Part shown: piece by piece, positions 15,264 to 63,147 of the stretch
Layout of the letters: each line of letters starts with the position of its first letter
Position numbering within the stretch: the stretch's first letter is position 1
From: Brevundimonas sp. Root608
Lineage (GTDB): Bacteria > Pseudomonadota > Alphaproteobacteria > Caulobacterales > Caulobacteraceae
Direction: 5' to 3'
NCBI RefSeq assembly: GCF_001427825.1
Contig: NZ_LMGT01000005.1
Span: forward strand, 62,001 to 126,000
Length of the DNA stretch: 64,000 nt
The notes under the pieces: generated by a model
Seen by the model: the letters and a program-made list of their open reading frames with translations, nothing else
Told to the model about the DNA's origin: nothing
Database searches by the model: none
Position numbers and translations under genes: made by a program

Positions 15264-15267
15264 CGGT

Positions 15268-15320
15268 CCTTCTCCCCTTGCAGGAGAAGGTGTCAGGCGA
15301 AGCCTGACGGATGAGGGGTC
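15268..15320 (+). repeat. Palindromic intergenic repeat unit (REP-like), left copy
   Basis: Two consecutive hairpins: an 8-bp stem at 15268-15290 and a perfect 7-bp stem with GAA loop at 15292-15308, ending in GGATGAGGGG. It lies five bases after the stop codon of the first S46 peptidase. It pairs with the inverted copy at 15389-15474. The same architecture recurs at 32043, 33375 and inside tilS. Confidence 0.85.
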
Positions 15321-15388
15321 GCTCCGGTCTTGCCGGGCGACCCCTTCGTCATTCATGGTCCGGCCGTCCAATCGGGTCCCCTCAGCGC

Positions 15389-15474
15389 GACCCCTCATCC
15401 GACCCGCTGCGCGGGCCACCCGTCGTCGGCTCGCCGTGCGAGCCTCCTCCACCCGCAAGGGGAGAGGACAGGAG
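15389..15474 (-). repeat. Palindromic intergenic repeat unit (REP-like), right inverted copy
   Basis: Inverted, diverged partner of the unit at 15268-15320, starting with the complement of the GGATGAGGGG end (CCCCTCATCC) and containing the hairpin CCCGCTGCGCGGG at 15403-15415. Its outer end reaches to within a few bases of the ribosome binding site (AGGAG) of the second S46 peptidase, so it is part of that gene's leader. Confidence 0.75.
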
Positions 15475-32042: not shown

Positions 32043-32084
32043 TCCCTCTCCCAATGGGAGAGGGAGCGGGGCATGGTGACCCCG
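32043..32084 (+). repeat. Palindromic repeat unit at the AlkX-like gene start
   Basis: A ten-base perfect stem with a three-base loop (32043-32065) is followed by a second hairpin (stem 32067-32071 with 32080-32084). The last base of the second hairpin is the G of the chosen GTG start codon, so the repeat forms the whole leader of the downstream gene. The first hairpin could also act as a stop for the VWA gene. Confidence 0.7.
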
Positions 32085-56216: not shown

Positions 56217-56687
56217 ATGAAGACGTTCCTCATCCCCGCCATCGCCCTGGCCGCGGTCTCCATCGCGGTCCCGGCCATGGCCCAGAACTATCAAGGCCAG
56301 TATCGCGGCGACCGCGACGGCCGTTACGAGCAGGAGTATCGCGGCGATCGCGACGGACGCTACGAGCAAGAGCGTCGCGACGGACGTTACGAGCAAGAGC
56401 GTCGCGGCGACCGCTACGAGCGGGACAACCGCGGCGGCTGGCAATCGATCTCCCAGCGCAAATATCAGCTGGACCGCCGCATCGACCGGGGCGAACGCAA
56501 TCGCCAGCTGAGCCGCCGGGAAGCGATGCGCCTTCGGGCCGAACTGAACCAGCTGGTCCAGCTTGAGTACAGCTATATGCGCGGCGGCCTGTCGGCCCGC
56601 GAACGCATGGAACTGGACCGCCGCTACGACCGTCTGTCGGCCCTGGTGCGCGCCGAACGTCGCGACAACGACAACCGTCGCTACTAG
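56217..56687 (+). CDS. Secreted protein with one helical repeat and RDGRYEQE repeats
   Basis: A 156-residue secreted protein: signal peptide (MKTFLIPAIALAAVSIAVPA, cleavage after MAQ), an Arg/Asp/Gly/Tyr/Glu tandem-repeat segment (residues 29-72) and one copy of the helical unit shared with the proteins at 5774 and 35124 (RRIDRGERNRQLSRREAMRL, then LVQLEYSYMRGGLSARERME). CAGGAG precedes the ATG. Strongly charged linker; location periplasm or surface. A strong terminator follows. Confidence 0.88.
   Translation: MKTFLIPAIALAAVSIAVPAMAQNYQGQYRGDRDGRYEQEYRGDRDGRYEQERRDGRYEQERRGDRYERDNRGGWQSISQRKYQLDRRIDRGERNRQLSRREAMRLRAELNQLVQLEYSYMRGGLSARERMELDRRYDRLSALVRAERRDNDNRRY
56301..56423 (+). repeat. 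Degenerate coding tandem repeat (YRGDRDGRYEQE)
   Basis: Two 36-base units, one 27-base unit and a partial unit in tandem inside the gene at 56217. All unit lengths are multiples of three. They encode the basic-acidic linker of the secreted protein. Confidence 0.8.
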
Positions 56688-61848: not shown

Positions 61849-63147
61849 TCAGGTCGAAAATAGGGGGTTCGGAGGCGTTGCGCCATGGATGACGGCGCCC
61901 AGGTCCCTTTCGTGCGTCATTCGGTCCAGCGCGAGCGCCAGTCTCCATTCGATCAGCGACCGCGTTCGCGCCGCCGTCCGTGCAAGAACCGGGGCGCCGC
62001 CATCGTTCCGGATCAGCACAGGTTGGCCGCCGCGAGCCGGGGGCGGCAGGGCCTTCAGGACCGCGCGATCGGCGTCGGACAGGGCGGCCATGCGGCCGGC
62101 GGCGGAGACGACGGACCAGCCGGGTTCGGCTGAGGTGATGGCCCAGCGGCCGTCCCAGACGGCTTCGACTCCGGGCGTCAGCGGCAAGGGCGGCGGAGGA
62201 CGGCGGGTCAGTTCGCCGGGCTCGCGGGTGATGGCGACGCGGTTGGCGGCGGCCTCGATGCGAGCGCCGCAGAGGGTGGCGGTGAAGGATTCGCCGGAGC
62301 GAAGGCGGGTCACGAGGGCGCTCAGCCGGTCCCGGCGGGGCGGGCGGTCACCGCCTCCGGCGCAGACGAGGACCGCGGCGAGGGCCTGAGCGTCGATGTC
62401 GCGGGGCGGTTGGAACCACCCCTCTCCCCTCGGCAGAGGGGTTGAGCGGGCGGCGCAGCCGTCGTTCTGGCGCGAAAGGGTGAGGGGTTCCGGCGGCGGC
62501 GCCGCATGGTGCCGTAACCCCTCGTCCGCCCACCCGGCTTTCGCCGGGCGGGCCCCTCCTTCTCCCGATGGGAGAAGGGAGGCGCGGGCGCGGCTGCGGG
62601 CGTACGTCAGGTCCTCATTGGCCGGGTCGTCGATCCACGCCGCCCCCTGCCCCGCCAGCCAGTCGCGGACCTCCGCCCGGCCAGCGTCGAGCATGGGGCG
62701 CAGCAGCATCAGCCCGCGCCCCTCGGGCCAGGCCGGAGACGGAGCCCAGTCGCGCAGCCGGCCGAGCGTGGAGCCTTCTTCCCGCATGACCTCGCCCTCG
62801 GCGATGTCGTCGGCGGTGTGGGCGAACAGGATGATACGGGCGCCCGCCTCGCGCGCGGCGTCGGCGATCAGCGCGTGTCGGGCGCGGCGGGCGGCGGCCG
62901 TCAGGCCCGTCGAGGGTTTCGGCCCGGCCCACGTCAGGCGCCGCCACTCCGCGCCGGCGTCCTGGGCGGCTGTCCGGGCGAAGGCGGTCCAGTCCGCGCT
63001 GTCGGGGTGGAGCCCGTGGTCGACCGTCAGGGCCAGCAGGCGTCGCCCGTTGGCCCGCGCCCAGCCGGCCGCGACGTGCAGCAGGGCGAGGGAGTCGCCC
63101 CCGCCCGACAGGGCCAGGGCGAGCGGATGATCGACGTCCGGCTCCAA
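61849..63147 (-). CDS. tilS: tRNA(Ile)-lysidine synthetase with internal repeat-encoded insert
   Basis: An enzyme of about 432 residues that converts C34 of tRNA-Ile(CAU) to lysidine. P-loop [40 protein letters not shown] and [17 protein letters not shown] are clear. Residues 190-244 do not resemble TilS: they are encoded by a pair of inverted palindromic repeats (62418-62579) that keep the frame open. Start uncertain: TTG at 63147 is the first standard start, but a CTG at 63204 overlapping the cpoB stop (CTGA) would add 19 residues, which better fits the family. Confidence 0.88.
62418..62579. repeat. Inverted palindromic repeat pair inside tilS
   Basis: The segment opens with an 8-bp hairpin (62418-62442) and closes with a 9-bp hairpin (62558-62578). 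Between them are an inner hairpin around CCCGGC...GCCGGG and head-to-head GAGGGGTT and AACCCCTC ends. This is the same layout as the intergenic units at 15268-15474 and 33375-33506, here wholly within coding sequence and without a stop codon in the tilS frame. It encodes about 54 residues. Confidence 0.85.

Follow-up and report, generated by a model that had tools for sequence, protein, structure and literature searches.

The tilS gene and its palindromic insert

The window, i.e. the whole stretch of 64,000 nucleotides of the Brevundimonas sp. Root608 genome (host genome, G000) that was analyzed, contains a tilS gene with a palindromic element in its reading frame. The relevant features are as follows.

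61849..63147, minus strand: tilS, tRNA(Ile)-lysidine synthetase, identified by its frame, TilS profile matches, sequence and fold
62420..62579, minus strand: in-frame palindromic element, an A-B' heterodimer of 160 nt encoding about 53 linker residues (...STPLPRGEG)
62558..62579, minus strand: outer hairpin of unit A at the gene-sense 5' end, CCCTTCTCCCATCGGGAGAAGG
62480..62526, strand not applicable: central inverted repeat at which the units face each other, GTGAGGGGTTCC ... GTAACCCCTCGTC
62420..62440, minus strand: outer hairpin of unit B at the gene-sense 3' end, CCCTCTGCCGAGGGGAGAGGG
about 15267..15465, strand not applicable: intergenic dimer of A-A type with a related unit A, outside tilS (compare G000:C5:77268-77318)
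32044..32064, strand not applicable: single hairpin CCCTCTCCCAATGGGAGAGGG, similar to the outer hairpin of unit B

The tilS frame ends with a stop at 61849 and is open to beyond 63144, the whole insert included. The start codon is uncertain; one candidate in frame is the TTG at 63147, and the open frame continues further upstream. The protein (P0001) matched the profiles TIGR02432 (4.1e-31, residues 40-224) and PF01171 (1.6e-29, residues 41-220); its identity as TilS also follows from the sequence match to 1ni5 and 3a2k and from the fold. It comprises a PP-loop ATPase domain (TilS N-terminal family, SGGxDS motif) and, after it, a C-terminal part. Since this is the single tilS match in a genome of 100% estimated completeness, TilS carrying the insert is presumably functional. 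TilS was detected in 120 of 121 Brevundimonas genomes and in 146 of the 149 genomes of a Caulobacteraceae sample that overlaps this set. A transcription terminator-like site was looked for in tilS and none was found.

Read in gene sense, unit A (CCCTTCTCCCATCGGGAGAAGG and an inner hairpin, with the end GACGAGGGGTT) faces unit B' (CCCCTCACCCTTTCGCGCC ... CCCTCTGCCGAGGGGAGAGGG). The fold of the element was stronger than that of 200 out of 200 dinucleotide shuffles, with z values of -5.0 as RNA of the gene strand and -3.7 as DNA. A search of the window against Rfam gave no matches. An earlier note on this DNA had described a palindromic pair at 62418-62579; the pair is real and could be delimited at 62420-62579 as a head-to-head dimer of 160 nt. 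The frame was correctly reported to stay open across it: homologues align on both sides of the insert and confirm the tilS frame there, hence the objection that the frame had been misread did not materialize. The claim that intergenic units in the window have the same layout holds in part. One other full head-to-head dimer, and only one, is present in the window (15267-15465), but it is of the A-A and not of the A-B type. Separately, 27- and 36-nt units (CGCGACGGACGTTACGAGCAAGAG-like) are repeated in tandem at 56299-56433, in a stretch that looks repeat-coding.

Copies of the element in Brevundimonas genomes

The genome search with the repeat unit proposed earlier yielded further copies on contigs C10 and C1. 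With the tilS element as query, blastn identified partial copies in the same genome at C10:28424-28498 (83%) and C1:290-359 (74%); with the copy of a relative (G014) as query, eight matches were obtained, two of them full length (C10:28430-28580 and C1:208-357). The true sister copies of the tilS element are thus located elsewhere in the genome, outside the window. The same G014 query gave 2 to 43 A-B' matches per genome across 16 Brevundimonas genomes, and the host genome with its eight matches is poor in such copies. The family is mostly intergenic in Brevundimonas genomes, and near copies of the tilS element lie between genes in the host genome as well.

Altogether, 52 A-B' copies were aligned over about 155 nt; their ends are sharp and all of them are head-to-head dimers. 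The arms failed to separate most tilS copies from intergenic copies in this alignment. A variant A half was found in the window copy, L006, and L016. Around 38 intergenic copies, neither a target-site duplication (direct repeat of 3-9 nt) nor a target motif was detected; their flanks had a mean GC content of 59%.

A commoner hairpin pair, CTCCCCTTCATGGGGAG ... CTCCCCATGAAGGGGAG, was also observed in G000 at a spacing of about 90-120 nt, for example at C1:113690-113801 and C3:23185-23319. This pattern gave 110 matches, compared with 43 for the reversed control.

TilS linkers in Caulobacteraceae

The linker, defined as the segment between ARSRAR and LAAxLVCAGG, was extracted from 149 distinct TilS proteins of Caulobacteraceae. 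An element or remnant was present in 47 linkers and absent from 102. Among the 47, the types were A-B' (21), B-B' (11), S (7), and P (3), with one case each of Q, R, T, U, and a Q/T-like linker. Assignment to a reference was by blastn with E below 1e-10 for 38 linkers and weak for the other nine; visual inspection served for U (L170) and for one A-B' remnant (L017). The seven references are tilS inserts themselves, therefore their status as elements rests on the copy-number search.

Palindromes match both strands, so some of the match counts in this search may reach twice the copy number. B-B' gave 25-54 matches in eight B-B'/A-B' host genomes, P gave 17 and 43 in two hosts and 2 in G068, Q gave 90 and R 75 in their respective hosts, and S gave 31-97 in four genomes. 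The P element used as query had no match in G000. Six sequence families (A-B', B-B', P, Q, R, S) were thereby shown to occur in multiple copies within the genomes that host them. Two unit types make up A-B', B-B', and Q, and the plan of S resembles that of T; the term family refers to sequence here, separate origins of the units being not proven.

The 102 element-free linkers mostly comprise 38-58 residues with fold z values mostly between -2 and +2, as compared with values down to -12 in element-bearing linkers. In the alignment with relatives, the element-free linkers were mostly shorter, unrelated in sequence, and without a hairpin signal, and a conserved segment of equal length was not found among them. 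Filled and empty relatives are comparable at the DNA level, for instance L110 with L117, L155, L119, and L116. The junctions in tilS differ between families. A recent insertion private to the host genome could be excluded because relatives share the tilS element.

Three further observations concern individual linkers or loci. Element-free linkers also lengthen by tandem duplication, as seen for GAAPQPDDQPPAKGGARPTVE, present twice in L024 (G079), and for a EIGPEVEIGPEIEIG repeat in L162 (G231). The linker of L113 (G088) is 80 residues long, matches none of the element families used, and shows no excess of hairpins. For L156 (G096:C1:1645914-1647383), the tilS matches are split into two overlapping parts that lie in different open frames, which points to a frameshift or a sequencing error.

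Number of insertion events

A tree was calculated from TilS sequences without the linker; it represents a single gene and contains some weak nodes. The linker types were scattered among empty linkers on this tree. Sankoff parsimony with equal costs gave 22 gains. At a gain:loss cost of 2:1, it gave 11 gains, 11 losses, and 3 switches, at 3:1 it gave 8 gains and 4 switches, and at 5:1 it gave 5 gains and 5 switches. Several insertion-type events at the tilS linker were obtained under every cost scheme tried, and switches between A-B' and B-B' were placed within one clade. With weighted costs, parsimony assigns about 10-14 insertion-type events to the linker. This may be an overestimate, since the A-B' copies in tilS all have the same orientation and the tree is a single-gene tree with weak nodes.

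Reading frame and divergence of the insert

The aligned stretch of the tilS A-B' copies measured 142-163 nt, L010 and L019 being partial matches padded to query length. A length of 1 mod 3 was found in all 14 aligned tilS copies, but in only 2 of 37 intergenic copies, 17 of which are exactly 155 nt long. The typical intergenic length would shift the frame, whereas the tilS copies are all 1 mod 3; hence, selection maintains the frame. Stop codons are scarce in the family: among the 37 intergenic copies, each of five frames is open in 14-31.

Divergence of the insert at codon positions 1, 2, and 3 was 0.142, 0.106, and 0.100 in five tilS copies of 154 nt. The flanks showed a mean third-position divergence of 0.354 and values of 0.06-0.18 at positions 1-2 among the pairs listed. 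Third positions are raised in the flanks but not in the insert, which is therefore not evolving like coding sequence; this codon-position pattern excludes that the insert is a conserved protein segment.

The insert was often less diverged than its flanks (0.091 compared with 0.233 for L005-L011), and the phylogeny of the element departs from that of the tilS flanks. The window insert diverged by 0.163 from L006 and by 0.276 from L005, although L005 is nearest to the window copy by its tilS flanks (17%, compared with 24% for L006). Purely vertical decay within the clade of the window copy is hence insufficient as an explanation. These comparisons point to inheritance combined with repeated partial replacement by other copies, in which conversion and reinsertion are indistinguishable here. 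Furthermore, copies are eroded by in-frame deletions, as observed in Brevundimonas alba (L052), B. basaltis (L019/L044), and L013.

Predicted structure and in-frame copies outside tilS

An AlphaFold2 model of TilS (431 residues) had a mean pLDDT of 87.4, and 329 residues reached at least 90. Averages over ten residues dropped to 44-56 across residues 191-240, which correspond to the insert; the only other stretch of low pLDDT was the C-terminal tail. A shallow alignment over the insert may itself depress pLDDT. The linker comes after the last helix of the catalytic domain. The model bears out the location assigned earlier, at the junction of the catalytic domain with the C-terminal part of TilS.

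About 119 copies outside tilS were checked by reading frame and GC3; they had been picked by similarity and do not constitute a census. Two convincing in-frame cases were found among them. A P element (about 1501-1655) is in frame in the reverse-strand gene of an Lhr-like helicase, L257 (G086), between the DEAD and Helicase_C domains, and an R element (about 1501-1598) is in frame in the reverse-strand gene of a fused MFS/spermidine synthase-like protein, L272 (G137). None of 20 long-ORF candidates was convincing by GC3. Among 60 further copies, L376 and L398 were flagged and then dropped. L376 is a duplicate of L248, itself negative; L398, as well as L255, was rejected because its codon-position GC pattern shifts across the element.

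Classification of the element

The element agrees with REPs in the broad sense: it consists of short palindromic units in head-to-head dimers that occur in many copies, mainly between genes. A RAYT-type transposase (PF01797), as expected for RAYT-mobilized REPs or REPINs, was found in none of 16 Brevundimonas genomes including the host genome, and it was also absent from G137. PF01797 was present in G164, which belongs to another genus, and the positive controls worked, Caulobacter vibrioides among them. Possibly, the RAYT enzyme was lost or has strongly diverged. Judged by its form, the element is REP-like, and a RAYT-driven status is unsupported.

The ends of A-B' copies lack the tetranucleotides of GTAG/CGTC REPs, and R-type copies read CGCTCA instead of CGTC. 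Inverted outer hairpins as in MITEs are present, but direct repeats of 3-9 nt are absent at 38 intergenic copies. The GANTC motif (CcrM site) associated with the Caulobacter CIR repeat occurs in 0 of 52 A-B' copies. Like Rickettsia palindromic elements (RPEs), the element is palindromic and continues the reading frame of the gene that contains it; this likeness is one of behavior, and we do not file the element as an RPE.

Origin and tolerance of the insert

Very probably, the tilS insert is a REP-type palindromic element that is translated within TilS and tolerated in a disordered interdomain linker which has been repeatedly invaded, replaced, and eroded. Such elements would land at many places, and in tilS only those insertions that keep the frame would survive. 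The linker presumably tolerates them because it is disordered and without conserved residues. After entry, a copy would be inherited and partly replaced or homogenized by other genomic copies, and later it would be eroded by in-frame deletions. The peptide encoded by the insert most likely has no function of its own. The earlier note had proposed a mobile REP-type element in frame in tilS that is tolerated as a loop; our data support the core of this proposal, the loop being predicted as disordered, and refine it: the tilS insertion is old and clade-wide, the linker has also taken up other families, and the element has probably been replaced or homogenized since.

A chance resemblance of an ordinary Pro/Gly-rich, GC-rich linker to a repeat would be in line with the GC-rich genus and its linkers rich in Pro and Ala, but it is practically excluded by the genomic copies and by the element-free tilS linkers, which served as a control and have fold z values near 0. 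Descent from a single ancestral insertion would make the linker types diverged descendants and the empty linkers losses. Within the clade of the window copy, the common 154-nt length class and the common orientation fit shared descent, and parsimony with very costly gains places an element at the root. Across the family, this reading is very doubtful and already largely refuted: R, P, and S have no sequence relationship to A-B', and all three are dispersed repeats in their respective host genomes, P is without a match in G000, and even gains at fivefold loss cost leave five gains besides five type switches.

The element might also be kept for a function, with mRNA hairpins at the domain boundary slowing translation or tuning the expression of tilS and the downstream ftsH. 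The strong hairpins are located exactly at this boundary, parsimony indicates recurrent occupation of the linker, and the insert DNA diverges less than its flanks. We regard this as improbable, since 102 relatives manage without the element and without a hairpin signal, loss and erosion are frequent, tilS has no terminator-like site, and the low divergence is explained by homogenization with intergenic copies. It is likewise quite improbable that several palindrome families were convergently recruited to one mRNA site as functional hairpins for a translation pause or for tilS-ftsH tuning. A mobilizing machinery that prefers the linker DNA as an active target, as opposed to random insertion with survivors in permissive linkers, would account for many events in tilS compared with two convincing in-frame cases among about 119 other copies. 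It is nevertheless unlikely: a target motif or duplication is absent around the 38 intergenic copies (flanks of 59% GC), the tilS junctions vary by family, and the sample of other copies is no census. The repeatedly invaded and permissive linker thus remains our preferred explanation, and the flexible link of TilS apparently is a recurrent landing site for repeats.

Relation to known elements and implications

RPEs are palindromes of about 150 bp found in frame in unrelated metabolic genes and tolerated in the protein (Ogata et al. 2000, 2002, as summarized in PMC10969869). They resemble the tilS element as tolerated palindromic repeats read through within a protein-coding gene. RPEs occur in a different host order and presumably differ in sequence; here, copies are nearly all intergenic and one linker was hit repeatedly by several families. 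GTAG/CGTC REPs are described as mostly head-to-head dimers and mostly intergenic, occasionally occurring in frame in genes including truB, and in two Xanthomonas species recB carries different REPs at roughly the same position (Di Nocera et al. 2013; PMC3733652). The likeness comprises short palindromes, head-to-head dimers, a mostly intergenic location, and in-frame occurrence in a gene for a tRNA-modifying enzyme. Unlike these REPs, the tilS element carries no GTAG/CGTC tag by its hairpins, and the recurrence described in that part of the paper involves a pair of congeneric species.

Enterobacterial RU elements are small mobile repeats, 103-168 bp in length, and their open reading frames have become part of annotated genes by fusion (Delihas 2007; PMC2759123). 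They belong to an unrelated lineage and, as far as this account goes, form single fusions in many genes, whereas tilS is one recurrent site. CIR, outlined in PMC10969869, is a dispersed intergenic repeat in the same bacterial family; it is tied to GANTC methylation sites and reported there as strictly intergenic, in contrast to the tilS element, which is in frame inside a gene and belongs to a family whose 52 A-B' copies lack GANTC. The open literature searched contained no report on tilS with palindromic elements or on recurrence at this scale. Hence, in-frame palindromes as such are already known from RPEs and intragenic REPs; the novelty lies in the gene targeted, the group of hosts, and the repeated entry of several families into one linker.

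In-frame palindromic inserts are usually viewed as scattered accidents; the linker of tilS, a conserved gene present in single copy, received at least six sequence families. REP-like elements are plentiful in genomes where the search for a RAYT transposase came up empty. Relatives with empty, filled, type-switched, and eroded linkers provide a natural series in which the passage from palindrome to protein, the securing of the reading frame, and tolerance versus targeting in a hotspot can be followed.
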